Made by a program: the position numbers and the translations under genes. A model generated the notes under the pieces. The model did not search any database, was not told the DNA's origin, and saw only the letters and a program-made list of their open reading frames with translations. 64,000 nt of DNA from Meghimatium bilineatum (lineage: Eukaryota; Mollusca; Gastropoda; Stylommatophora; Philomycidae): contig CM067314.1 of NCBI GenBank assembly GCA_034231615.1, positions 5,086,501 to 5,150,500 of the forward strand, given 5' to 3'. Positions 556-58,193 of this stretch are shown one piece after another (within the stretch, counting starts at the first letter, position 1; each line of letters opens with the position of its first letter).

Positions 556-3500
556 GTATAAACTCAATCTTATCGTGTTAGCCAGTTAGTTATGCATTAC
601 CTTGTTCTTGCTATTTCCTATCTCATTATTGCTTATCTTGTTATATCTTATCTTATTTCTTGTTGTCTTATCTTACTTCTTATCTTGTCTTATTTTAATT
701 CATATCTTGTTACATAGTATCCTGATATTTTTTATCTTGTTATGTATTATCTTAATTCTTATCATGTTTTGTCGTATTTTACTTCATTTTGTGCTATTTA
801 TATTGTTTCTTTTTGTTATATCTTATCGTTACTTCCTATCTTGTTGTATCCTATCTTGTTATTTCTTATCTTATTACTTCTCATCTTGTTAGTTATTGTT
901 TTGTTATTTGTCTTATTGTTTCTTATCTTGTTACTTATTATCTAATTTCATATGTTCTTACTTCTTGTCTTATAGTTTCTTATCTTATTATTTCTTAGTG
1001 TCTCATTTCTTTCTTGTTATTTCTTATATCATTAGTTATATTACTATTTATTATCTTGTTATTTCTTATCTTCTTAATTATTGACTTGTTATTTATATTA
1101 TTTCTGTCCTGTTACTTCTTATTATCTCGTTATTTATCTAACTTTTGTATCTTGTTATTTCTTACCTTCTTACTTCTTGTCTTGCTATTTTTTTCTTGTT
1201 ATTTCTTGTCTTTGCCTCCGTTTTTTTTTCTTATTTCTTTTCCTGTTATTTATCTTAATATATCTTATCTTGTTTTTTACTTATATCATTAGTTTAATTT
1301 TATTATTTCTTATCATATTACTTCTGATCTTATTTCTTAACGTTTTACTTCTTATCTGATTCTTATCTTGTTATTCCTTATTAGCTATTTATTTCTTATT
1401 AGCTTTTATCTTATGTGTTGTCATTTCTTTCTATCTTGTTACCTATTATCTTTTTACTTCTTATAATATTTCATATCATGCTACTTCTTATCATATTTTT
1501 TATCTTATTATTTCTTGTCTTGCAACTTATGATCTTATTTATTATCATATCACTTCTTATCTCATTCCTTATCATGTTACTTCTTATATTTTATATCTTG
1601 TCACCTGCTGGTTAGACTTATAGGCGATATGTAAGTCAATGACTGTAACTTCCTAGATGCTGATATTCCTTCTTATCATGGTGAGGTTGATTCTCTGGCT
1701 GAGGGGCTACTACGAAAGTCTCAAAATGTCAACTGACAAGAATGACTTTCATACCATTTTATGTCACTCTGGATTTTATAGTTATCCATATTTAGTAGTT
1801 CCTAAAATAGCAACAATAGTTGTTAAAACATTGTTCTAAATAGTTAAGGTTTTCATTATTTTAGGTATATCTTTGTACTTTCAACGTTAACTACAGAAAC
1901 TAATCAAGAATTCATGGAAATTAATCAATGCATTATTTTTCTATCAATCAATCACTCAACTGTCTCTCATAAGAACATAGACCACAGGAGAATTGCTTCC
2001 AGTCTGCCATGTCAATTATTTTCACTCCAGATCTCTATAATTGTTATTGGCTCATGCCATGCCACAACATCAGGTTATCTCATATTTTCTCACGACTTCA
2101 TCAATATTCTATCTAACTTTTGTTTTCATGCACACTGTATGAAGATGTCAGAGCGGTGAGTATGTCCATGTGAACAAGGCCTCGATACTAGTTTTAACTA
2201 CCAAAAAATAATACAACACAAAGATCATTCACTCATTCTTTATGTTCACGAGATGTTATATTTTATGAGTAGTACATTCTAATCACAAGCACAGTCGCTC
2301 ACTTGCAGACGTTAGAGAGAATGTTGGCAGTCACATACGTTAGAGAGAATATTGGTAGCCGTACATGTTAGAGAGAATTATAGCAGACGTTCACTCAAAG
2401 CCATTACAGAGAATATTGGCAGTCGCTCACCCACACCCATTAGAGAGAATATTGGCAGCCACTCACTCGCACCCATTAGAGATAATATTGGCAGTCGCTC
2501 ACCCACACCTATTAGAGAGAGTATTGGCAGTCGCACCAATTATAGAGAATATTGGCAGCCGCATATGTTGGAGAGAATATTGGCAGCCGCTCATTTGCAC
2601 ACATTAAAGATAATATTGGCAGCCACTCACCTGCACATGTTAGAGAGAATATTGGCAGCCACTCACCTGCACATGTTAGAGATAATATTGGCAGCCACTC
2701 ACCTGCACATGTTAGAGATAATATTGGCAGCCACTCACCTGCACATGTTAGAGAGAATACTGGCAGCCACTCACCTGCACATGTTAGAGAGAATATTGGC
2801 AGCCACTCACCTGCACGTGTTAGAGATAATATTGACAGCTGCACACATTAGAGAAAGAATATTGGCAGCCACACACATTAGAGAGAGAATATTGGCAGCC
2901 ACACACATTAGAGAGAGAATATTGGCAGCCATACACATTAGAGAGAGAATATTGGCAGCCACACACATTAGAGAGAGAATATTGGCAGCTGCACACATTG
3001 GAGAGAGAATATTGACAGCCACACACGTTAGAGAGAGAATATTGGCAGCCACACACATTAAAGAGAGACTGTTGACAGCCACACACATTAGAGAGAGAAT
3101 ATTGGCAGCCACACACATTAGAGAGAGAATATTGACAGCTGCACACATTAGAGAGAGAATATTGACAGCTGCACACATTAGAGAGAGAATATTGGAGGCC
3201 ACACACATTAGAGAGAGAATATTGGAGGCCACACACATTAGAGAGAGAATATTGGAGGCCACACACATTAGAGAGAGAATATTGGAGGCCACACAAATTA
3301 GAGAGAGAGTATTGGCAGCCACACACATTAGAGAGAGAATATTGGTAGCCACACACATTAGAGAGAGAATATTGGCAGCCACACACATTAGAGAGAGAAT
3401 ATTGGAGGCCACACACATTAGAGAGAGAATATTGGTAGCCACACACATTAGAGAGAGAATATTGGTAGCCACACACATTAGAGAGAGAATATTGGCAGCC

Positions 3501-6500
3501 ACACACATTAGAGAGAGAATATTGGAGGCCACACACATTAGAGAGAGAATATTGGTAGCCACACACATTAGAGAGAGAATATTGGCAGCTGCACACATTA
3601 GAGAGAGAATATTGGAGGCCACACACATTAGAGAGAGAATATTGACAGCTGCACACATTAGAGAGAGAATATTGGAGGCCACACACATTAGAGAGAGAAT
3701 ATTGACAGCTGCACACATTAGAGAGAGAATATTGGCAGCTGCACACATTAGAGAGAGAATATTGGTAGCCACACACATTAGAGAGAGAATATTGGCAGCC
3801 ACACACATTAGAGAGAGAATATTGGTAGCCACACACATTAGAGAGAGAATATTGGCAGCTGCACACATTAGAGAGAGAATATTGGAGGCCACACACATTA
3901 GAGAGAGAATATTGACAGCTGCACACATTAGAGAGAGAATATTGGAGGCCACACACATTAGAGAGAGAATATTGACAGCTGCACACATTAGAGAGAGAAT
4001 ATTGGCAGCTGCACACATTAGAGAGAGAATATTGGAGGCCACACACATTAGAGAGAGAATATTGACAGCTGCACACATTAGAGAGAGAATATTGGAGGCC
4101 ACACACATTAGAGAGAGAATATTGGAGGCCACACAAATTAGAGAGAGAATATTGGCAGCCACACACATTAGAGAGAGAATATTGGTAGCCACACACATTA
4201 GATAGAGAATATTGGCAGCCACACACATTATAGAGAGAATATTGGCAGCCACACACATTAGAGAGAGAATATTGGCAGCCACTCATATTATAGAGAGAAT
4301 ATTGGCAGCCACTCATATTATAGAGAGAATATTGACAGCTGCACACATTAGAGAGAGAATATTGGCAGCTGCACACATTAGAGAGAGAATATTGGCAGCT
4401 GCACACATTAGAGAGAGAATATTGGCAGCTGCACACATTAGAGAGAGAATATTGGCAGCTGCACACATTAGAGAGAGAATATTGGCAGCTGCACACATTA
4501 GAGAGAGAATATTGGCAGCCACACACATTAGAGAGAGAATATTGGCAGCCACACACATTAGAGAGAGAATATTGACAGCTGCACACATTAGAGAGAGAAT
4601 ATTGGAGGCCACACACATTAGAGAGAGAATATTGGAGGCCACACACATTAGAGAGAGAATATTGGAGGCCACACACATTAGAGAGAGAATATTGGAGGCC
4701 ACACAAATTAGAGAGAGAGTATTGGCAGCCACACACATTAGAGAGAGAATATTGGTAGCCACACACATTAGAGAGAGAATATTGGCAGCCACACACATTA
4801 GAGAGAGAATATTGGAGGCCACACACATTAGAGAGAGAATATTGGTAGCCACACACATTAGAGAGAGAATATTGGCAGGTACACACATTAGAGAGAGAAT
4901 ATTGGAGGCCACACACATTAGAGAGAGAATATTGACAGCTGCACACATTAGAGAGAGAATATTGGAGGCCACACACATTAGAGAGAGAATATTGACAGCT
5001 GCACACATTAGAGAGAGAATATTGGCAGCTGCACACATTAGAGAGAGAATATTGGTAGCCACACACATTAGAGAGAGAATATTGGCAGCCACACACATTA
5101 GAGAGAGAATATTGGTAGCCACACACATTAGAGAGAGAATATTGGCAGCTGCACACATTAGAGAGAGAATATTGGAGGCCACACACATTAGAGAGAGAAT
5201 ATTGACAGCTGCACACATTAGAGAGAGAATATTGGAGGCCACACACATTAGAGAGAGAATATTGACAGCTGCACACATTAGAGAGAGAATATTGGCAGCT
5301 GCACACATTAGAGAGAGAATATTGGAGGCCACACACATTAGAGAGAGAATATTGACAGCTGCACACATTAGAGAGAGAATATTGGAGGCCACACACATTA
5401 GAGAGAGAATATTGGAGGCCACACAAATTAGAGAGAGAATATTGGCAGCCACACACATTAGAGAGAGAATATTGGTAGCCACACACATTAGATAGAGAAT
5501 ATTGGCAGCCACACACATTAGAGAGAGAATATTGGCAGCCACACACATTAGAGAGAGAATATTGGCAGCCACTCATATTATAGAGAGAATATTGGCAGCC
5601 ACTCATATTATAGAGAGAATATTGACAGCTGCACACATTAGAGAGAGAATATTGGCAGCTGCACACATTAGAGAGAGAATATTGGCAGCTGCACACATTA
5701 GAGAGAGAATATTGGCAGCTGCACACATTAGAGAGAGAATATTGGCAGCTGCACACATTAGAGAGAGAATATTGGCAGCTGCACACATTAGAGAGAGAAT
5801 ATTGGCAGCCACACACATTAGAGAGAGAATATTGGCAGCCACACACATTAGAGAGAGAATATTGACAGCTGCACACATTAGAGAGAGAATATTGGCAGCT
5901 GCACACATTAGAGAGAGAATATTGGCAGCCACACACATTAGAGAGAGAATATTGGCAGCCACTCATATTATAGAGAGAATATTGGCAGCCACACACATTA
6001 GAGAGAGAATATTGGCAGCCACTCACGTCAAAAAGAATATTAGCAGCCGCTCACTTGCGCATGTTGGAGAGAATATTAGATGTCATCTTTGATCTTACTT
6101 TCCTTTAATCTAGTGCATTGTAACTATTCCCCAGACCTTCCTGTCTCATAAAGTGGCAAATAATATCAATGCTAGACCGAGCTGATTGACCAGGAGATAA
6201 TGATGAACATAAAACAGTATTGATATATGTTTCTCTAAATGACTGATGAACCTGTTTCTATTACAGCTGGTATCTTCATGTACACTACACAAATTTATTC
6301 GTTTCCGCTCAAGTTTACCCCATATTATGAAATCATACAGACTGGTTTGGTTGTGATATTTGGCTTGATGTCTACATATTTCCTGCTGTCTGAAATCAAA
6401 TCAGTAAGCTCTATTTATTGATTAATACAATAGTATCCTGTTTGTATGTATATATCTGTTACAAAGAATTTATTTGTAACAAATTTCTCAGTTTAACAAC

Positions 6501-29100: not shown

Positions 29101-32100
29101 GTGTCCAGTTTGCGGTGATGATGATCTGACAACTAACTAACTCACTAAGATAACAAAGAGACAGACAAATTTGGTTAAGCAGACAGGCAGTAGCAAGTTA
29201 TTTAGTTATGCATTTCTGCAAGTAGGCATACAAACTGATAGATATTAACTAGGTACCAGGTAGCTAGTTATTTACTTATGTATGTTGATAAGTAGGTAGA
29301 TAAATAGACAATAACATATATATACCTGATCTTGAGCAGCACTTTCATTAAACAAGTAACAACCATCAGACAACTGAACAGAATGAGGTAACCTGTCCTC
29401 AAGGATATTGTTTTAAAGCTGATGTAATCTGCTTCACTCTTCTCTCTCAAACTTGCCTCATGGACTTGACTCAGCTACAAGACATAACATGTTCATCATC
29501 ATCATGTATAACATTACATCTATATATATATATATAACAGATTATCATATGTATTACTTCTACGTGCATACAACAATTTATCATTGGTATCACATTATAT
29601 CTACACACATATAACAGTTTATTAGAAGTCTTGAAAGTTGATAACTGTATGGTTTATAAGTATGTTAATATTACATGCATTTATAAATATGATAATGTTA
29701 CATGCATTTATAAATATGATAATGTTACATGCATTTATAAATATGATAATGTTACATGCATTTATAAATATGATAATGTTACATGCATTTATAAATATGA
29801 TAATATTACATGCATTTATAAATATGATAATGTTACATGCATTTATACATATGATAATGTTACATGCATTTATAAATATGATAATGTTACATGCATTTAT
29901 ACATATGATAATGTTACATGCATTTATAAATATGATAATGTTACATGCATTTATAAATATGATAATGTTACATGCATTTATACATATGATAATATTACAT
30001 GCATTTATAAATATGATAATATTACATGCATTTATAAATATGATAATATTACATGCATTTATAAATATGATATTACATGCATTTATAAATATGATAATAT
30101 TACATGCATTTATACATATGATAATGTTACATGCATTTATAAATATGATAATGTTACATGCATTTATAAATATGATAATATTACATGCATTTATAAATAT
30201 GATAATATTACATGCATTTATAAATATGATAATATTACATGCATTTATAAATATGATAATATTACATGCATTTATAAATATGATAATGTTACATGCATTT
30301 ATACATATGATAATGTTACATGCATTTATACATATGATAATATTACATGCATTTATACATATGATAATATTACATGCATTTATACATATGATAATATTAC
30401 ATGCATTTATAAATATGATAATATTACATGCATTTATAAATATGATAATATTACATGCATTTATACATATGATAATGTTACATGCATTTATAAATATGAT
30501 AATATTACATGCATTTATAAATATGATAATATTACATGCATTTATAAATATGATAATATTACATGCATTTATAAATATGATAATATTACATGCATTTATA
30601 CATATGTCTTGACATTGCATTAATTTATAAACATGTTGCCTTGCATGTATTTATACAATTTTTAACATTGCCATGGATTTCATTGCATGATCTCATAGAT
30701 GTAGTTTGTTTCTGTGATAGAGTTAATAAAAGTATCCCCATGGTATAGTGCATAAGCCATTTGCCGTGTGTTTATGAGGTTGTAGATGTGATGCAGGGCC
30801 ATGACTTCTGGATTTGTTTAATGATTCCTGGAAATTATTGCTCCATTGAGAGTGACAGAGTCATATGGAAAAAGAAAAGTACAATTAAATCAATTCTCTA
30901 TGCCTTTTGAGTTTGTTTACATAAACAGAAATGTACATACAGTATGTACAAGAGTGTATTCATTCTTTAAAAAGGTAAAATAAAAAATCTGCCCTGTACA
31001 AGTTTGACTTGCGGTTTTGAGATAGTGAGTATTCAGAAGCCCAAAGTAGTGGGTTATAATTACAATGCAGACAGTTCGACAGACATATCATTAAGAAAGC
31101 AATGGGACATTAACCCCTTCCCTGCGGAGGCATCCTTAAGGATACGATGAAAAGTCATCTTTATTTTGCAGACATCTTAATGAACAATGGGCCATGTACT
31201 AATATAATTTATCCCTGATAGCACCCCAAAGTGTTCAAATACTCTGACTGGCTAGTTAAAGCTGTCTGGGTCATTTAACAATAGAAATTCTGTATTTGCA
31301 CACGTTTGATAGCATAATAACTACTTTATGTGTGTTAACACAGGTGTCTTTTCGTTGTGTGGCCATTTTGACTAGGTAGTACTATGGCAAATCGTACACT
31401 AAATGAATTTGAAAATTATAAACATTTGGTAGAAAGTTTCTCTGATAATTCTAGTATTCCTTATCTGATTCAGGAAGTGACTTAGAAAGTGTTAATTTGC
31501 AGTGTAGTACTCATTTAGATGACAGACCCTATATGCAGCGCACATGTTTCAAATTCGTGATATGGGATAAGGTAAACATTTTTGTTTTCTGTCAATGTCA
31601 ATACCTAGAACCATCAATCAAACAAGTGCCATGCCTAATGGCATAGGCAATCATATTTCTCCACGACTCTGTCTCTAGTGTTGTCAATAGACTCGGTGAA
31701 CTTCTCTTGTGCCATAATACTAGTCTATCTAGAAACTTCCTTCTTTGCCATCCCATCTCCTTTCCCCTTGATCATTTCAGTGTTTATTTCCAGTGGTTAT
31801 TAAGTGTTAAAGGTTGGTCCTTCTCAGTACATGCCCTGGGAATCTTGACTGTGTGCCCCTAATGTTTGATATAATTGATCCTTTTATGCCACCATCAATG
31901 AGAACATCTGCATTAGTTCTGACTGTCCATGGTATTTTCATCATTCTTCTCAGGAACCACATCTCTGTAGCCTCCAGTTCGTTTTGAATGTTTTTGTTTA
32001 CAGTCAATGCTTCACATCCATAAAAAAAGAATTATTTAGATATAACTTCTCAGTACTCAAATTCGGGTCTGCATTGATAAGTCTTCCATTGCACAAAATT

Positions 32101-37400: not shown

Positions 37401-40400
37401 TATTCTCCTTTTAACTTCTGTTTCACATCTGTCATCATTTGTGACTATGTGTCCAAGATATTGATAATGTTTTACTTGTTGTAGTTTCTCTCTGTGTATT
37501 TTATGTTTAGAACCTGTTCTTCTGTAACTTTGCTGATTATCATAGTTTTTTTGGTTTTTTTAATGTTTATATCCAGTATATAATCTTTACTTGTTTTATC
37601 AACTTGATCTTTTCATGTTCACTTTCTACTAAAAGAAGTGTTCCCAGGACAAGGGAAATAGTTCCCTTAAAATTAGATTGGATTGTGCAAGAAAATGAAT
37701 AAAAAAAATACAGTTTGCAATCAAGTTTTGTCATTCAAAATTCAATTTACAGAAAATTGGAAGAAGTACTGATCTGCGAACATGACTGTGAGTATCTTGT
37801 AAGACAGGTTTACTTGTCATGTAACAAATGAGAGGAATCCAAATGAGTACTAGTTTCCTATCAGCTTCAATTACTTGTGTCAATTTGTTTGCTACTGAAT
37901 GTTCAAATGAAAAGCTGCATACAGTCTCCCTTACACAGCCATGACAACATGATATCCTATTCTTCTGTACAGGAGAACCAGTTTATTTGATGATTGAGAA
38001 CACCTTCAAGTTATATACCTGTAGATATCCAGAAGGGTGATCTTTAGATCATCACATTTTTATATTTCCCAGGGTTTGTTTTTCATATAGGTCTACTGTT
38101 TGTTTTTCATATAGGTCTACTGTTTGTTTTTCATAAAGGTCTACTGTTTGTTTTTCATATAGGTCTACTGTTTGTTTTTCATATAGGTCTACTGTTTGTT
38201 TTTCATATAGGTCTACTGTTTGTTTTTCATATAGGTCTACTGTTTGTTTTTAATATAGGTCTACTGTTTGAATTGGAACTTGCCTGTAAAAGCTTTCATA
38301 GATTCATGAACACTAATATCTAGTTCATGTTTCATTAGCTCTCTGGACTTAGAATAAGATCAAACAAAAGTCTAACCTTAAAAATTACATCTAGTCTTCA
38401 TGCTATGAATTTGCAATTATCATTGATATGAAGAAATGTGTTTATACTTTCATATATATATATTTCTGACACTTGACACTGCAGTCACATTTAACAGTAG
38501 ACCAAAATATTCTGTTAGGGTATCAAAGAAATATCTTGATATTATTAGGTGAAACAGGTTTCCAAGAAGGATCTCGTTGTTCTAAAATTTTGATACACTG
38601 TAACAGCATATTCCTACACATTGGTTTGCTCTGTGCAGTACCTCAAAGAATGACTGACGTAGAAATAGTGAAAGATAGGCCTAGTCCCAATCAAACGTTG
38701 AGTAGGTTGAAAGGTTGAAAAGTTGTAGAAGATTGACTTCATTGTACTCAGCTTACCAAAGTATACTCTGTCCCTCTCACCGAAGCAGCATACTGCCTGC
38801 CGAGAGTACCATCATAGCACATAATTCCGGTGCTTCAAGCAATAATTACCAGAGATCTTAGAAAAAATCCACTTTATAAACAAGATAATTCGAGGGGAAT
38901 TCGTTCCTACAACCTCTTTAGAATAAAGCATATGGCATGACCACTAGCCAGAGAGAACCTCAAGAAGCAGAGTAATCGGGGTCAAAATATTTGCACGACC
39001 TGATTTCTAATGAAATTTCTCAATATTAACGTAACTCAGCTGTTTGACTGTATTATCTATCATGTCTAGGGTGTTGCAGAGAGCAGTGATCACATGTCAT
39101 CAATTAGGCCTATCTACTAGAGTTCGACAATTGTCGCTTGTTAACTTTCAAGTCCTGAATTAATTCTTCCTCAATGTTTGATTAATTCTCATTCTGAAAA
39201 ATTCCCTATAAATCTCATCTGAATCATAAGTAGGTTCATTCTGACCAAAGTTTTAAATAAAATTACAGAACATAATAAACAACTCCGAGCTAGAAAACCA
39301 CAGCTGGAAACGTTCGGAAGACTGCAATTTCAGCCACCATTACTGCTAGTCGCTTCAGAATATAAATAAATTCATGGAAGGACCTCTGCAGAGAACCTCA
39401 GGCATCATGTTGCCCAACTAAATGTACTAGAAGAAAGGCACATGCCCAGAGTGTGGTAGACAATTCCAGACATGCATAGGACTCATTAGTCGCAGTCGGG
39501 CACACCGCAGACACCATCATCTTTATTATCCCAGTTGAGCTGAATGGCCATCTCTGACTTCAACGGATGAATAACACTGCTCGTCACATGAGGGCTAAAT
39601 TCAGTATGTTTATTCACATAAACAGTGAAGAAGAAGAATTAAAATAACTATGTCAATGTCGATCGTTAATGGCCAGGATGGAAATTAATTGATAGCTGTC
39701 GGGCCCCACTAGGATGGGAGTGAGAGGGTTAAATTGAGAAACTTAAATGTTAATTCTGTATTGTTCTATATATGAGAAATAGATGCAAAGCACATGTCAA
39801 TAAAAAAACTAACTGGTAACTTACTTGAAAAAAAAAGTATAATGTGTCAGACAGAAAGGTGCAGATATCACAGATAAAATGTAAACTATGGCATAATGCA
39901 ATCTGTTCTCCGGACTACATGCTGGTGATCTGGAGAAGTTTGAGAATGAACGTAGAAGAATAATAATGGTAAACAGAATTGATAGAATGACCTGTAAGAG
40001 TTTTTCATGTGTAAAATCAACAATAATTTATCTACAATAACAAGTAGACCTATATACGTAAACTTTCTAGAAAGATGAATTAGCTAAAACGTACAGATTT
40101 GATCTCACTTGTCAAGAAATATATGGCCATCAAAGCAAACAGTACCACCAAGCAAGACAGGCCAACGTCATGTTTTTCAGAGAATCTTATCGGAAACGTA
40201 TTAATGTCTGAAGTGTGCATATAGAAACCAGCTGTGAATGTCAAACATTATTGTTAATATTGTATAGTAATATTTTAGTTACGTATTAGGTATGTAAATT
40301 ATCATCACCACACACCTGACATGTCTCCATAAATGCTCAGATCTGCACTTTATTAAATCTTTCTGGCTGTAGTGGCTGATGACTCTAATTTTGTGTTGAT

Positions 40401-43400
40401 TGTTTATTCTTGGTGGAAAATAGGTGGAGCGAGGTTTCACCATTTTGTCATTTCTGATGCACAGAGATGGTTGGTAAGACAAGTGCATTGTTGATAGTCA
40501 AATAATTCTGTGTGGTTTTTGTGTCCCGTTTGTATTTATTTCTTGATAAAGGTTGGAACGTAACGTAGAAAAGTTTTTGTTCCTTTGTTTTTTGTTAGTT
40601 CTTATTCATATTAGTTTTTATATTGAATAATACCAGTTTTCATCACTTAACTGTTGATATAAGTGATTCTTGGGATGCTGCTTACACGTTTATTTGACTT
40701 CTGACATTTTCATTTGTTCTCTACAGTAAAATATTGACTATCCTTTGCAGTATTTTGGCGGGTGTCAGAATTAATTGGTGGCATCCACCTGCTCGCAATC
40801 CCTTTTGATGTCTCTATGTATGTGGTATTTAACTTTTGTGAACACATTAAATGTTATTAGTTCAGGTTATCATTATATAAGACAAGTCCATAGCTGCTCT
40901 GATCCCCATCTCAATAAATCAATCAGGAATACAGTTTGGTGTTAATTTCTCAGTCTCTTTGTGAATATACAGTGGAATCCCATTATAATAACTTGGTTCA
41001 GGCCGACAAAATATGTTGGCCTATGTAATTACAGAAATTCACTATACAGACTATAGTACAACAATATAGAATAAACATAATTTGGGTTTTGAAAACTGTT
41101 ATTACATAGGGAAATGTGTTATAAAAGAATGCAGTGTAGAGGAATTCTATCTATCTAGGAATTCTATTGTCTTTACTCTGCTTAAGCTGTGAGGAGTCAC
41201 CTGTTTGAATGATGATCGGTTTTTGGGCTAATGCACATTTGGTGGCTTGATATGCAGTAATACTGTGCCATGTCAGAATGTTGGTAACTCCTTAAATTCA
41301 CCTTCTTCTTTGTCTTCCTCTGTATCTTGCTGTTCCATTTGTTTTGAGCAAGAACTCAAGAGGGATTTGACTGTTTATATAATATGTTTTCTTTCTGTGC
41401 CATTGCAATCTTTACTCTGATATTTTGCAACTCTGAGAATGACCATGATTCACACTTCTAAAAATCTTATGAATAGACAAGTTTTCTCAGTGCATTGATT
41501 ATGTTAGCAAGATCAACTGATCTATCTATTCGCTAAACCCTTTGTTACCCTTCAGCATCAGGGGTAGAAGAGTTTACTATGGAAGGTCCTCTTGTGTGCT
41601 AAGTATATTGTGGAATTTGTCACTTCTTTCATTTCGGTGATCCATCATTTTCATGGTTGGCCTCTAGGTCTGCCTTCACTGTGTAGCATAGCTTGCTGTG
41701 GCATGCTGTCTGATGGTTGTCTGCTGATGTTTGCAAACTATTTGATCTGTTGTCTCTTAATATATTCCAATATTAGGGTGGTGCCAGCTTTTTTGGTCTA
41801 ATGTCCTCATTCCTCACTTTGTCTCTTAGCGATATTCCTAGGATTCTGTGAAATCATGTCATTTCAGCTGTCACAAGTTTATGTTTGTCTTGTGCTGTCA
41901 TTGTCCATGTTTGGCATTGGTAACACAGCGTTAGCATAATAATCGTTTTGAAGTGTTATTTTGGTGTTTAAATCTACATGTTTGTTTTTGAAGATTGGTG
42001 TAATTTGCCCTAGGGCTTGGTATGCTTTACTACATTTATGGTGTATTACTCTGCTGCTCTTGCCATCTGTTGTTATATTACGTCCTAGGTATGTGAATTC
42101 TGTCCCTTGCTTAAGTCTACTGTTTCCAATATATATTTATGTGTTTCTTTCTGTTCTTCCTATCTTCATTACTTCAGTCTTTTTTATATTTATCTTCATG
42201 TTAAAGGTATGGCATGTTTGATGTAATCTATCTATTTGTCTTTGCTCTTCTGATGATGCTACTAGTGCTTGGTTGTCTGCAAATATCAGTTCATTTAAGT
42301 TATCTTTGATATTGTTTTCTTCCTTTGTCTTTGCTACTTTGCAGATGCAATCTATGTATGTTATGAACAATAGGGGGATAGTACACATTCCTGTCTCACT
42401 CCTAAGTGAATTTGGAAATTATTGGATGTACCTGTGTTTGTTCTGACTGTGCATTGGCTATTGGTGTATATGCTCTGACATAGGCTTATCAGATATTGGG
42501 AACTCCATATGTCTGTAGTGTTATCCATAGCTGTGCTCTATCTACTCGGTCAAAAGCTTTCTCTTGGTCCACAAAAGTCTTGGTTATGTTCTATTGTTCT
42601 TTCTGAAAGTTGTTTGAGAGTGAAGCTTGCATCTGTACAGCTTTTATTTTTTCTAAAGCCCAATTGTGTGTTGAGCCATAGTTCAATATATGCGCACATC
42701 AATTGATAATATCTTTCAATATTGTGACCATCCAGCTTATCAGTTCTTTACTGTCAACCCTACATATCCGGACTAGAATATAAAGATTCCTCTTCTTCTT
42801 CTGTGTATAAGTTTTAATAACGCACAATGATAAACAGCTGCAAAATGACCTATATATTTGTGTCTGTCAGGTAATACAATCAGGACATGAGATAGAGGTT
42901 TTCATAAATAAATCATAACTAAACTTGTATATGGAGTTGGCACCCTTTTCTGATCTTCGCAATATGCTATTGTTTGCTTCAATCTCCAGGAATTATGAGC
43001 ACTGAAACTCTTGTTTCCTATGCACAAAGGTAATAGAGGAAGGGTCTTCAGAGATACCCATAGTGCTCCAACTCTAATTACAACTTGCAGCGGTACGAAA
43101 TGCTTTCAGGAGAGGGCTACTATTCACGTGAAGTAATTGTGTATGTAGAAGACATGTACCATTTTTATGCAAAGATTCTGTAACAGCCTACAATAATATG
43201 GTGGCATCAATGTATGTCACTCTTGATTTCAGTGGATACGACTGCATGACTTCCAAAGAAAAACAAAGTTTTACAAATGAAGAAAAGACATCCAAAAACA
43301 TGATAAACACAAACTTGAAGCCCCATATAATGAGAAGAATGTTTTACCCATTGTGAATTCGTAGACATGTTCTATAATTGTTGACAATCCTGAATCTATG

Positions 43401-43813
43401 TTGAAAAAGTTTACACTAACTGCTACTGCTCTTGTGTATTCATCAACCCACTTGTTCTCTCTTAGGTAGTTCAGATAATCAAAACTATTCTTGGACCTAT
43501 CCAGAATTAAGTCATACCTGTTTGAGGAGATCAAAAGATTTGTGATGCATTCAAACTGTCATAATGACATAAAAATACCATCATTTCTAGAAAAACTTAA
43601 AACAAAAATAACAGATCAAAAGGACTATAGTTATTTTTAAAATTCTAGACATATTTTGTTTATTTAATCAATTCCCACAAATTTGAAGCAATGAATCTAT
43701 TGTTTGCTATGTAAAATTGGGAGTTTCTCCAGAGCTAGATTGTATAATCTGAATATAATGACTCTTAGTAGTATTCAATGCTTTGAGGAGGAGACGTGTC
43801 CTATTCAAAGAGG

Positions 43814-46800: not shown

Positions 46801-49800
46801 TCTTCTTGGTCTGCCTTTCCTCCTGTGCCCCAGTGCTCTGCCCTCCATTATTTGTCCTTCTAAACAGTTGTGTCTGTTTATATGACCAAATAGGTGTAGT
46901 TTTCTTTATGCTATTGTGTATAGTAACCAACACTCTGGAATCTTCAATGTCTGTATAATATCTGAGTTTCAATTTTTTTTCCTTCCATGATATTCTAAGT
47001 ATCCTTCTGTAGCATTTCATCTCAAAGCGTTGTTCTTTTTTGGTCACTGTTTTACTTAGTGTTCATGTTTCACAGCCGTATGTTGCAATTGGAAAAATAA
47101 AAGTTCATAGCATTAGTAGTTTTGTTTATATTTTGTTATTTTTCCGTATGTTTTTCGACCATGTTATTTTACAATATGCCATTGCTAAAGGTTAAGTAGC
47201 TAAAAACTAAAGATAAGTACAGTGAAACCTTGGTTTTCATCAGTAATCTGTCTGAGAATAATCAGCGAAATCCAAAACTGACGAAAATTAAGGCAACTAA
47301 TTCCTTGTGAATCGATGTAAATTCAATTAATGCATTCCAATTACAAATTCAAAAAAAACATACCAAAACCAAGTGATTTATCATGTGACTTGCAACATGA
47401 ACAACTGACTTACCCTCCCCCTCTGTAAGTGTGTGTTGGGGTAATAATGTCCTCAGAATGATCTGCCTTTTTATAAATATATGGCTTAAGTACAGATTTT
47501 TCTTCATCTACTTGCAAAACCCAAGTGTTTGCAAATGTTCGAGTCTCTGAAGAAATACAACAGATGAAATATACATTGTGAAATAACTGTTAAATGATGC
47601 ATTTATATTGATACTACACTCCTTCTTCATCGTTCATTCTCAAACTTCCACTGGATATCTCTTGCAGCAGGACCATGGTCCTATTAGATTTCCAGAAGGA
47701 TGTAGTACAGAGAATGGAAATGCATTGTGTCATTTAATTTGCGCCAATGGATGATACTAGGCTATGTGCATTATTTATTTTGGTTGTTTTTCCCTCTTAT
47801 TGCAATCAAATGCAATCTATTTCTATTGTGCTTTCTATTGTGAGAGTTGGGCACTTACTGTGAACATGGAGAGGTGATTACAGACCTTTGAATACAAATG
47901 ATACAAGTTCTATGAATTTCCTATAAGAGAACATAAGACAAATGTGTATGGAAGAAATAAAATAAAAATGCATATAGGTCCACATATGCATATATGCAAT
48001 AGTGAAACAATGAAAACCTGTATTGTTTTGACATATAATCCAGCATGATTCCTTGTAAAAAAACATTACTGTAGGGAACTTTCGAAGATGGAAGAAGCAT
48101 AGGATGACAAATAGAAACATAGACAGACAAGATCAAAAACTGGATAAGACAAGATTTATCTTCATTCATTCGCATTGTTGAAGATAGAAATTGCTAGAAC
48201 ACTCTGTGTGCTGAAGCATCCAATGTTGTACCTGTACGACCCTGATAGGCTACAATGTTGTACCTCTACGACGCTGACGGGTTATAATGTAGTAATTCTA
48301 CGGCCCTGACGGTTACAATGTGGTACCCCTATGACTCTGACGGATTATGGGTATATAGGTAGAGGTGTAGGTAATCTAAATTTAGACAACAAAGGACACA
48401 TCTGAACAATCAAAATGAAAGCTCTGATTTACTAATTATGATAACAAATATAGCTGACAAAATGTCTACTAAGTAGATCATATTACAGAAAGCACATAAT
48501 TGTAGTTTGGAGATGGTATTCATAACAATGGATTCTTGATTAAGAACAGCATCATAGAACATATCATATTTCCAGAAGTGATATCTTTGTTAGTCCATTT
48601 ATCCATCTAAGAGTAGTTTATATAAACTCAGTTTCCCAGTCAGTTGTTGGACATGGGTTCTTCAGATTTCTCCAGAGAGGATGTACTTTCCCCCCTGGTC
48701 ACTCCTAATTCAATCATTCAACATGTACATTATTATTTCAGCCTCCTTTAATTTATTATTTTATTATTTCAACCTTGTCCTTTTCTAGTGTATAAGCGTC
48801 ATAATTAACACACTTATAACAAAGTTTTGACTATCAAAGAAATCTATGACAAGAGTTTTCAACATTAAACAGATCTATGACAGATTTTTCAACATGAAAC
48901 ATATCTATGACAGACTTTTTAAACATGAAAAAATCTATGACAAGAGTTTTCAACATGAAACATATCTATGACAGACTTTTTAAACATGAAAAATCTATGA
49001 CAAGAGTTTTCAACATCAAACAAATCTATGACAGCTTTCAATATCAAACATACCTACAACAGAGCTTTCAATATCAAACATACCTACAACAGAGCTTTCA
49101 ATATCAAACATACCTACAACAGAGCTTTCAATATCAAACAAACATCGAGGATAGATCAGATCTGGATAGTCCTTTACGCAGTTTCCTGAATGAGAAGAGA
49201 AATACAAAAGAATTATCTCAATGGTGACATTCACTATAACAGTAAAGTAGGAAATATGGACTATATGCTAGCAGTTAAAAAACTATTATAATCAAAAAGT
49301 TTGGGGAGAAATGAATACTAAACATAAAAATATATAGCGAAAAAGTAGACACTTTCTTGTATCTTGGGCACATAAATCACAAATCATGATAGATGTGAAA
49401 CAGAGGGTAAAGGAGAAATGGAATGGCTAAAAGTACTTTCAATGACATGAGGAGACTAGCGTCCAAACAAACTATTAGAATAATGGCAATTATAAAATGC
49501 TACATATAATACTAGCTACAGAAGAATTCTCAGAATACCATAATCTCAAAGATCACCAATAGGAACATTCTGAAAGAATTGAAAGTAAAATAAAATGGCT
49601 AAACAACAAGGTTCTCTCTCGAAAACTACAACATTTTGCCCATACCACATGCCATGATAGCCTAGAAAATATCATAATTGAGGGGATGATGACAGGACAA
49701 GGAAAAAGAGGCAGACCACAAAGAAGATGAACACAATATATCAACGAATATTCACAGGCAAGAAGATTGACAGGAGTTTCAAAAGGCTGTGATGACAGCT

Positions 49801-52800: not shown

Positions 52801-55800
52801 AACATTACACGATGGACAGGTTACAGTGTAGCAGAGTGCACCACCAAGACAAGAGACAGGAGATGTTGGAGATACGTTGCAGCCAACCTTCGTTGCGGAG
52901 ACGGCACTTGATGATGATGATGATATATAGTAAATTGATATTACATAAATATTTTATCAATCTGGACTAATTGTTATAATTATATTATTAATACAAAGTG
53001 TCTCTGTTACCTTTGTATGGTTTAACCCTGACTTGTCTTACTCGTATTTTAGTCATTATATGCATATTGACGGTGCTGGTGTTAGATTTCCATGTTTTGA
53101 TGGTAGTGAACATTTTGATGAGGTGGTTCCAGAATGCCTCTGTCGTAAGAGTCTGCAGAAACACACACATGTATTGCTTACAGTAACTTGGGAATCTGAT
53201 TTTCTCACATAGATCTGATATTAACTTATAAAGGCCAGAATATTTTTTAAATATTTTGTCGCAAATATCTGGGTACAATATCTCTTTTTCTTTCAAAGTA
53301 AAACTTGTGTGTCATGACACAATATACACACATATATAATACATTCACCTAATAAATAAATAAAAAATGTATAATTAGGCATACATTTTGATAGAAGTGT
53401 ATTAGAAAATTGTATGTTAACTGAAATTATGATTAATTTTCCATGCCTTTCTGTGTAAAAAAATGGAAAGTTATGAATGAATAAACTACTCACAAAACCA
53501 TGCAGAAAGCCTGAAACATGTTTCTGAGTACTCCAATAAACAGGGCAGTAGATACAAAAAAAGAAGGCATTTGCCGTTTTCATGTACGAATCCCTAATTT
53601 TGATGAGAAATTGTATGATCTTTTTTGTGAAAAACATTATGGGGGTAGTTAACCCACCTTTTGGCTACATATTTTATCCACCTTTTTTGCTACATTATTC
53701 AAACCCCCCTCCCACCCTTATCTACTGGCTTGCCAATACACTTTTAGAATAACAGTAAATCCATTTGTGAACATTTAGAAACCAGTATCAGATTTGTGTA
53801 TTGTATTATTTTACACTTTATTTGGTGAACAATATCTTGTTTTACACTTTATTTGGTGAACAATATCTTGTTTTACACTTTATTTGGTGAACAATATCTT
53901 GTTTTACACTTTATGTGGTGAACAATATCTTGTTTTACATTTTATTTGGTGAACAATATCTTGTTTTACATTTTATTTGGTGAACAATATCTTGTTTTAC
54001 ATTTTATTTGGTGAACAATATCTTGTTTTACATTTTATTTGGTGAACAATATCTTGTTTTACATTTTATTTGGTGAACAATATCTTGTTTCCCACTTTCT
54101 TGGTGAACAATATCTTGTTTTACACTTTCTTGGTGAACAATATCTTGTTTTACACTTCATTTGGTGAACAATATTTTATTTTACACTTCATTTGGTAAAC
54201 CATATTTTGTTTTACACTTCATTTGGTTAACCATATTTTGTTTTACATTTTATTTGGTGAACCATATTATAATGTTAAGAATATGTTTTGACCACACCCT
54301 CTTCATTTTCAGAACTTGGTTATTCTTCTTGAAACAAATTATTTCTGTTACTTCATCAACTCTGGTTGGATGTGTTGGGCCACTGGCGTAAATAAAATAG
54401 CAACACAATACATTTCAATTCTCTGGACTGCATCCTGCTGAAAATCTAGTAGGACAATTGTCCTGCTATAAGAGACAACGAGTGGGAGTTTGAGAATGAA
54501 CACAAAAGAGTAAGAAATGAATGGTAGGCCTACTATATCATAGCTATCAACTTATTTTTCATAAAAATGTATTGATTGTAATTTATATGCATATTTTAAT
54601 TTAACAAACATCTTAATTACAATTTATAAGCGTATTTAAAAAAAAACAATATCCGTATTTAGCACCAAAAGATCTTTTTTAGCCCATCAATATGTTTTTG
54701 TGATTATTAGACTTACGTAAAACACAGGTTTATATATCGCTTCAATGAGACACGACAGACTATAGCTAAAACTAGTAGGTAATGATGGGCAATGATGAGC
54801 ACACAAGAAATCATAAAAATTACAATACACAAATCACATTCAACGTTTCAACCAAAAGGTCTTTATTAAGACACAAACAAAACATCAAAATGGAAAACGA
54901 ATGGAAAATTATCACAACATCCAACGGAAATATGGAAATGAGATGCCGAAGGTCAAAAGTACATAAAAAACGTAAATATATGTGGAAACGAAACAAACAA
55001 AAAGAATAAAGACAAAGACCACACCAACCCAGTACTATTGAATGTGATTTGTGTATTGTAATTTTTATGATTTCTTGTGTGCTCATCATTGCCCATCATT
55101 ACCTACTAGTTTTAGCTATAGTCTGTCGTGTCTCATTGAAGCGATATATAAACCTGTGTTTTACTAAGTCTAATTGTTGTTACGTTTCACACAATTACCT
55201 TGTTTTTGTGATATAAAAACTTCTGCATTAGTAATAATTAGGCCTACTGAAATTGAACACCACTTGACCTTTTTAAACAATTTTTTGGGGGAAATCTGTA
55301 CTAGCTGACACCTATGCAATATTTACACATTTCTTGTTTCATGTGACATATTCTTTTCAAAATGTGGTCTGCCTTATGGATTCTCTGAACACTCCGCAAT
55401 TCTGGGTGAGTTGAGCTGCCGCAGCTAGCGACATGTTTAAGCAATCTGATATATCACTGCACCATCATCATTTTGGGCGCACTCTTTCCCTGTTGCCATT
55501 AACTTTGCCTTCAGCTATTAATCTTTCTATGATGTTATGTTTTTTTATAAGACCAAAGAAACTCAGTTTTCTTGTTAAGATCTTGTTAAAGAGGCAACCC
55601 TCTTCGACATTTACTGATCTTAACACTTTTTCATTTGTCTTTTTAGCTGTATAGGTGGTATCCATGGTATAAGTAACATTTTTCTGTAGCATTTTGAAAG
55701 CAGCGATTCTCTTTGCTATAGTTTTATTTAATGCCCAAGCCTCACAATCGTATATTGCCACTGGAAATATGCATGTTCTGATCACACATGGTTTAGCTTT

Positions 55801-58193
55801 AATACATTTATACCAATTTTTAATACTTAAAATCACTTTAAAATGATATGTGTTGTGTCCATTGCAGAAGTAAAGTATTTGAGAATGAAATAACAGTAAC
55901 TTCTTTAAATAACTGAAAGCATTATTAAATACCACACTATTGTAATTGTCCAATATACAGCTGTCCAACCATTGTTTCAGCATTTTCAGATGATAATGAA
56001 ATAATTCCTTCAGTTGCAAGTAAGTAGCTCTTTACAGAACATAGCCTTTTTGACAAAAGCATATAAGCCATTAGGATTCCAGGTTATTTCTACAGTTATC
56101 TCTATCATGTGAACATCAATAGTGCTATTCTTACTCATCATTGTTTGTTGTAAATGTATCCTTGCAGAGGTCTTTTGGTTGATAGGCCTACATTGTTTTG
56201 TGTGTGTTATTATGCATGTTTCAAGTGATTAGCAAAACTTTATTAACTCGTTCCAAGATGCACTTGTTGGATTTAAGTTTTTATGCAGTGAGTAGGCCTA
56301 TATATTTTTGACACAAGCACATATCCTCAGCTGATTAACCTAGAGAAACTGAAACACATAAGGTTTGCTGTCAAGGTTGTGTTAAGTGGAGTTTATGGAT
56401 GTATGTTTAGTCCCTAAAGGGAAGCATTCTAGTGTAGCAGTATTCCAATATAAGCGTGTCCTACCAGGAGTGCAGCGTATACATCTGGGTCAACTAGTTC
56501 ATCTTTCGCCTGTCAGATCTGTTGACCAATATACAGTGATGGCACAGCTAGCATTCACCATCATCTAGTAGTCTGCAAAAGAGGACAAAGTTGCAATGTC
56601 CGCTGGTCTGCATCTCTTAACCTTTAGCAAGCCAGATTAAAAAATACGAAACGTCTCCCTGCCGCCGGATTCTTTTTTGAAAATTTGCATTATTGATGGT
56701 GACTGTTTTGAAAATGTGATAATTTTTTGGTTGTTAGAGATATTTAAATAATATTTGCACATATAAATAAAGAATTGAATTATGCATATATTGGTGTAAT
56801 TTATGTACGTGTGTGTGTGATACCAGACGTATGAGAAAGTGGTAAAGACGTTTTTCACAAAAAACATATATTTTATAACAAATAAAGAGGAAAAAAATAA
56901 GAATAAAAAATAACTTACCTTATATATCGAATTCCTTGGCAACACTGTAAACTAAATCACGCAAATCTGTTGTATTTATGTTCTTTCACTGCGAAATTAT
57001 CAAAATATAGCCGGGGGAACTGTATAAAACATGTAGATTTGCAGTAAAATTGTTCTTTGAGCTTAGGCCTAGAGTTATTTTTTCTGCCACTTCAAAATAT
57101 TCGATATCAAACGTACTAGTCCCCAAACCAACACGGCATTCTGTATATTCACTGCTGTGAAACTAAATAACCTAATAATCCATGATTCAAGCCACGATTC
57201 AATGTTATTTTATTCGAAATACGATGAAATAAAGGTCTATAAAACCGATCCATCATAATGGCATCGTACCGGTGTACAGATGTGGTCAGATTAATTGCTC
57301 TTAAACTTTTACGAATAGCTAGCCATTCTTAAAAACGATCATTTTGGAAGTGGGGGATGTACCGACTTCGATTGCGCATGTCCCCAGCTATGTGCACGGA
57401 CTGTGGTACGTGTAAATCTCACGATATTATCGTTGGGTGGGACGGGTTGCCAAAAGCGTGCGCGGCCATTATGTTTCTCGGCGGCCGGGATTGATATAGA
57501 CTTGGTGAAGGTTAAACATCTATTGAGACCATGTGACAGAAGACAAAAGTTAGAAATTGTGACAAGACATGCAGTCATAATGATGATTTTTTTTATTTTA
57601 CAGGTGACAGGTTGTCAAACTGTCTTGTCTGTCCCCCAACTTTCCTTAATTGCCTCCTACAACATGACTGAAAAGAAGATAGTGGTTCTATTTTGTGCAC
57701 CCTGAACTAGAAATCCATGCCCCCACGGTTGCTACATGAGCAGCATTATCAGATATATTGAACATACACTGTCAACATTGTTTCTGTAATTTAGATTTAA
57801 CATAGGGGCAAAAATAAGGTCTGCTGGAATCACAACAAAAGTATACTTACAATATGAGGCTTCTTTGTGATTATGTGCAAGCGCAAAGACTTTGTTAGAA
57901 ACTTTGTCTGAAGAAATCTGTTGTGAACAGATCCCGTTTCCATACTGACAATGGCAAGAACAACAATAATAAAAATGATATTCTGAACGTGGTTGTAGGG
58001 GACTCTTTTCTCCCTGTTTGCACGCTCTCTCTGGAATAAAATGTGAATAATGATATAGTTCAGATTACAAATACATTCCTTGACTACACACACACACACA
58101 GATATATACATGCATACCTACAGGCACGCGTGCACGCACCCACATATACATGCCAGTAGGTACCCGAGCACAGGCCCATGCACACACACACAA

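Follow-up and report, generated by a model that had tools for sequence, protein, structure and literature searches.

When the end of an exon is copied into the following intron together with its 5' splice site, the question is whether the cell is offered several exon ends or merely carries the residue of repeat formation. We addressed this question at a short exon of a polycystin-type gene, here called gene B, in the land slug Meghimatium bilineatum. The gene lies in the window, that is, the 64,000-nucleotide stretch of contig C17 that was analysed; the published assembly comprises 25 chromosomes and 7 unanchored scaffolds and amounts to 1.61 Gb, according to the available part of its description (PMC10770140). 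The exons of gene B were placed as follows (a slash marks a splice junction).

57851-58030, minus strand: upstream exon, read by eye as holding a transmembrane stretch (open frames matching paralogues)
53011-53152, minus strand: preceding exon, which ends in phase 1 (...KPYK G/) (open frames matching paralogues)
49114-49185, minus strand: the array-bearing 72-nt exon of polycystin-type gene B (splice sites and paralogues A, C and D)
47414-47546, minus strand: following exon (CAG/AG ACT CGA ...), joining donor 1 as SSVV-E-TRTFANTW (open frames matching paralogues)
43349-43517, minus strand: next exon, the polycystin-domain match of the genome-wide search, with an end placed to within one base (domain and paralogue match)
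40083-40247, minus strand: open frame with the next downstream exon match, its exon ends approximate (paralogue match)

Spliced through the first donor of the 72-nt exon (donor 1), the stretch of four exons that runs from 53152 to 43349 matched the Polycystin_dom (TOP) family PF20519 with 73.5 bits over profile positions 19-182 of 199, which agrees with an earlier note that had placed the site in the TOP domain of a channel-type gene. The solved structures nearest by sequence were those of polycystin-2, polycystin-2-like 1 and polycystin-1-like 3; these matches were weak (best E 0.0038) and covered the C-terminal part of the TOP domain only. Regarding the cation-channel domain PF08016, the 20 genome matches listed (E <= 0.01) included none on C17, and an intronless paralogue on contig C11 scored 32.6 bits. 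The cysteine segment said to lie beside the site was also recovered, both cysteines of the 72-nt exon being invariant across five aligned paralogues.

Both splice sites of this exon (49185-49114, minus strand) were read directly, the 5' flank being TTCTCATTCAG/ and the donor edge TTGTAG/GTATGT. Its product, (G)NCVKDYPDLIYPRCLFDIESSVV(G/E), lies inside the polycystin/TOP domain and the exon end reads ...DIESSVVG/GTATGT. Direct reading of the copies confirmed the splice-donor minisatellite that the earlier note had described: the unit consists of the 27 last exon bases (49140-49114) plus GTA of the intron and recurs with a period of 30, and it holds TTGTAG/GTA, so the duplicated segment includes AG/GT. 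The TRF program reported the array at 48815-49140 with a period of 30, 10.9 copies and a score of 313. Its units are the following.

49111-49140, minus strand: u0, 27 exonic bases plus GTA, holding donor 1 (unit comparison)
49081-49110, minus strand: u1, identical copy (0/30 differences from u0), holding donor 2, which would add 10 residues
49051-49080, minus strand: u2, identical copy (0/30 differences from u0), holding donor 3, which would add 20 residues
49023-49050, minus strand: u3, a hybrid with a young left half and an old right half, AG/AT at the donor position (unit comparison)
48811-49022, minus strand: u4-u10, decayed older copies, with AG/AT in u4-u9 and AA/GT in u10 (TRF, frame reading and unit comparison)

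Exactly three intact G/GTATGT donors are present, at 49114/49113, 49084/49083 and 49054/49053. All of them are in phase 1, no stop codon separates them, and they share the same sequence from -27 to +21. The eight distal copies (49050-48811) are decayed, seven of them having lost the GT; u4-u10 are diverged copies of 29-31 bp, and the frame of the exon closes where u4 starts, with a stop at 49018-49016 after ...FDIESCHRFV. Hence the in-phase repetition of the donor given for 48835-49185 holds for three stop-free donors, but most of 48835-49050 is decayed, which leaves two extra donors at most. The GMFDIESSVV blocks expected from distal donors would indeed be in frame, but could be added only once or twice (+10 or +20 residues).

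The array did not arise by chance and was made in place. With a recurrence rule that required an 18-mer to repeat within 160 nt with at most 4 mismatches, shuffled sequence scored 4 times in 833, whereas here all 30 bases of 30 repeat twice. A DNA search of the whole genome (1.61-Gb assembly, 32 contigs) with three units, in which simple repeats and very common words are skipped and sensitivity is limited accordingly, returned two matches, both within the gene B array. As the unit was matched nowhere else in the genome, it was made locally and is not a dispersed repeat. The four other donors and five acceptors of gene B were tested as well and none recurs nearby (best, 10 mismatches of 22-27). 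Many other arrays occur in the window, including a 30-bp minisatellite at 2822-6048 (107 copies, 91% matches) and a 27-bp array at 29653-30606 (35 copies), in which three of the six reading frames stay open over long distances, probably as an effect of its period.

Paralogues A (C17:5080955), C (C17:5316822) and D (C17:4781624) contain a counterpart of this short exon that ends at the equivalent position and in the same phase; their donor edges are /GTTAGT, /GTCAGT and /GTAAGT, respectively. Only the donor-1 product aligned without gaps to A, C, D (the following junction of D being taken from the homology match) and the intronless C11 paralogue. Since this gapless alignment needs donor 1, the comparison identifies donor 1 as the ancestral exon end of the family, and it is most likely still the main donor. 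In addition, the domain score fell from 73.5 to 64.2 bits with 10 extra residues and to 61.6 bits with 20 (cut-off, 23.6). Both results weaken the interpretation given in the earlier note. The intronless paralogue (L064, C11:44622784-44623947) lies in an open frame of 2194 codons and is perhaps a retrocopy.

Behind the matching exon, no recurrence was seen in A (best, 13/29 mismatches) or in C (12/31). Paralogue D carries, at the same exon as gene B, 231 tandem copies of 52 bp spanning 12.0 kb (C17:4781583-4769572, minus strand; loci L063, L065, L036 and L033), each unit being made of 32 exonic and 20 intronic bases. GT is found once, in the exon copy, while the 230 other copies have GC (105 GCAAGT and 125 GCATGT). 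Because these 230 intronic copies vary at only 12 of 52 positions, a single GC founder would be enough to explain the array, and selection for GC is unsupported. An ancestral array common to all paralogues was rejected, given that A and C are without copies and that the B and D units have neither length nor breakpoints in common; for the latter reason, independent births of the B and D arrays appear likelier.

The decayed copies of gene B also bear on the history of its exon. Compared with the exon end of paralogue C, the present B exon shows 9 differences in 30, while u4, u6, u8 and u9 show 6-7; u5, u7 and u10 show 11-12, u5 and u7 being aligned with a one-base shift. At exonic columns 6, 9, 16, 24 and 25, the majority base of the seven old copies is not that of the present exon; at columns 6 and 9 the old copies are mixed. 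The old state at these five columns is shared by C at four, by A at two and by D at two, and at column 6 both C and A have the state of the exon. In our own codon reading, three of the four changes that the exon seems to have undergone since the old copies alter a residue. That four of the seven oldest copies are nearer to the paralogue C exon end than the present exon suggests at least two waves of copying, an old one and then a young one. We consider this history likely but not firm, because u5, u7 and u10 are farther from C than the exon is and column 6 disagrees.

The explanation that we favour, and hold to be quite probable, is that gene B carries an exon-intron-boundary minisatellite (a 'mirage') raised by local duplication, probably twice, in which donor 1 is ancestral and likely the main donor and donors 2 and 3 are probably minor. 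Beyond the anatomy, the identity of the young copies and the decay of the old ones, which are observed, we infer that replication slippage or unequal exchange would have duplicated the 27 last exon bases and the donor into the intron. A first amplification would have started from an older exon end, its copies then losing GT; the exon would have changed, and a second amplification would have yielded the perfect u1 and u2. Donors 2 and 3 match donor 1 in sequence and could be used by the spliceosome in competition with it, giving at most two longer in-frame forms (+10 and +20). Such forms would change the extracellular domain and are expected to be minor or absent.

The strongest competing explanation is that the repeated donors are substantially used, producing a ladder of ectodomain lengths (0, +10 and +20 residues), and that array length varies between individuals. 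Of two equal donors, the intron-proximal one is often preferred, which would favour donor 3 here, and for this reason we keep substantial use of donors 2 and 3 as a minority possibility, unlikely though not negligible. The three donors are identical, intact and stop-free in one frame, and both longer products still score as a polycystin domain. However, the family is matched by donor 1 alone, there are just two extra intact donors, and one period in three would be a multiple of 3 in any case. The amphioxus precedent points both ways: boundary repeats of a globin gene vary in copy number between haplotypes (PMC3087553), but boundary arrays left regular splicing undisturbed (PMC3087553, PMC3902484), as far as the available parts of these papers go.

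The in-phase, stop-free arrangement, which the earlier note had pointed out, loses much of its weight on the same ground. Each unit brings in only three intron bases and the period is divisible by 3, so that a stop-free phase is near-automatic. Among the five donor arrays that we saw, the periods were 30, 36, 40, 52 and 92; only 30 and 36 are multiples of 3, and the array with the 36-bp period contains an in-frame stop. A selected in-phase design is thus unneeded, since the phase follows from the period.

A broader version of the ladder would make the exon edge a generator of ectodomain variation: slippage would keep making in-frame donors, the resulting ladder would differ between slugs, frame-breaking copies would be silenced by loss of GT, and the array would write back into the exon. 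We regard this version as improbable. The GT losses cited for silencing are the AT of the old copies of B and the GC of all 230 intronic copies of D.

Slightly less probable in our judgement is an array that preceded the exon end or overwrote it, the present end FDIESSVV being derived from the array through gene conversion by the minisatellite unit. The identity of the exon, u1 and u2 would fit this explanation, as would the four exonic sites that seem to have changed after the old copies formed, three of them with an altered residue. Nevertheless, A, C and D have the exon with its end and phase, while A and C are without copies and D has another unit, which indicates that the exon was the ultimate source. 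Conversion may have acted in the second wave, but substitution in the exon followed by re-amplification is as simple an account of it.

Gene B is not alone in this genome. Donor-edge arrays were found elsewhere in the polycystin family at loci L013 (period 92), L020 (period 36) and L047 (period 40), and an acceptor-edge array at L041, so that the boundary arrays known here, including those of B and D, are all at polycystin-family exons. At L013 (1706-2662) the exon end CACACAG/GTATGT is repeated in alternating 52- and 40-bp steps, with GTATGT or GTAGTG in the stretch that was read. The arrays of L047 (1762-3248, 40 bp) and L020 (1727-1950, 36 bp) include few exon bases per unit, and GTAAGT is mostly intact where they were read. 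The acceptor edge of L041 (1323-1532) shows about four copies of TTTATTTGTAG/ATCTTCAA..., exon start included. Since similar arrays are present at other splice sites of the genome, nothing singles gene B out for a special role.

We then compared splice edges with their surroundings. Donor arrays were present at 3 of 47 polycystin-family donors (49 loci less two of the intronless C11 gene), in addition to B and D among the four C17 exons, which were chosen and are not random draws. The recurrence rule flagged 4 of these 47 loci; L013, L020 and L047 were read by eye and kept, L049 (4/18 mismatches) was dropped unread, and unflagged exon ends were assessed automatically only. By the same rule, 462 of 2842 flanking windows recurred. 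An earlier automatic count gave 2 of 42 donors (with the donors of L013 and L020 misplaced), 97 of 630 flanking windows and 3 of 126 exon-interior windows. Acceptors were flagged at six loci (L008, L009, L021, L031, L041 and L043), of which only L041 was read and kept. Among kinase and myosin genes, none of 15 donors had an edge array (12 by the rule at the best-scoring donor, 3 by eye and TRF), and in 4 of the 12 a repeat starts about 15-30 bases behind the donor. Automatic donor calls, in both family counts and in the kinase/myosin set, used a score matrix entered by hand.

Preferential seeding at donors found no support in these raw counts (2/42 versus 97/630, and 3/47 versus 462/2842): flanking windows recur so often by the same rule that donors are struck no more than what surrounds them. 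Across 53 exon loci totalling 170,577 bases, 17.4% of the sequence lay in TRF arrays, with those of B and D counted in. The boundary arrays look as if minisatellites, which arise abundantly here, had reached splice edges without any targeting, and the gene B array, which has no demonstrable selected function, looks like an outcome of the unusual abundance of intronic minisatellites in this genome. A repeat also adjoins a nuclear copy of mitochondrial DNA (L070, C2:121989805-121990428) that includes cox1 (PF00115) and segments interpreted as nad4 and nad2; its cox1 is open under genetic code 5 (also 9, 13, 14 and 21) and not under vertebrate code 2.

It is very improbable that the copies have been retained to serve as decoy donors or to bind U1 and thereby regulate the splicing or transcription of the long intron. 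The tandem intact donors seen in the parts of L013, L020 and L047 that were read and the 230 GC donors of paralogue D (105 of them GCAAGT) would suit such a role, yet the old copies of B have lost GT, the near-uniform D array can be explained by a single GC founder without selection, and repeats without splice sites are common in flanking sequence. Least probable of all is an assembly artefact or a wrong copy number, for although tandem arrays are hard to assemble and one assembly only is available, this array is short (330 bp), its copies are mostly distinguishable, and PacBio reads were assembled with Hifiasm to give the source assembly, as stated in the accessible part of PMC10770140.

Minisatellites at exon-intron boundaries are an already known kind of structure in cephalochordates. 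In amphioxus, 'mirages' lie across the boundaries of Adh3, globin, troponin C and PGBD5 genes, affect both exon edges, keep regular splicing and vary in length between haplotypes (PMC3087553, PMC3902484; these and the papers below are cited from their available parts). The slug arrays resemble them in that an exon edge and its splice signal are tandemly copied into the intron, at 5' and 3' edges, with some copies keeping AG/GT. They differ in occurring in a land slug, in the gene B array, whose 30-bp unit takes only 3 bases from the intron and whose three in-frame donors are identical, and in paralogue D, with 231 copies and GT in the exon copy alone. Intron gain by tandem duplication of AG/GT (the Rogers model) is treated in PMC3087553, and a potato case in PMC4974935; here too the duplicated segment carries AG/GT and could act as donor or acceptor. 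Intron gain was nevertheless rejected for gene B, whose intron is older than the array, its position being common to A, C and D, and no new intron was seen. In human segmental duplicates, variable internal tandem repeats at exon-intron boundaries (PMC2812944) similarly involve exon edges, recent family members and possible splicing effects, but about half of them are in coding exons and transcripts were examined, whereas the slug copies are intronic and known from the genome sequence alone. In abalone, a polymorphic 27-bp intronic minisatellite of a TSSK1-like gene (PMC6905558) is not described as containing a splice site in the part of the paper available. Our literature searches, whose coverage excluded most subscription journals, found no mollusc report of splice-edge arrays. 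New here are the animal group, a set of three equivalent donors in one frame, the D array with its 231 copies but a single GT, and old copies that likely record how the exon end read earlier.

Altogether, these results show that splice-edge minisatellites exist outside lancelets. Donor arrays offer natural experiments on spliceosomal choice between equivalent sites, with three identical donors in gene B and, in paralogue D, one GT followed by 230 GC copies. In addition, the end of a coding exon may survive in an earlier form in the old copies. If the extra donors were used, a minisatellite could alter the outer domain of an ion channel in ten-residue steps.
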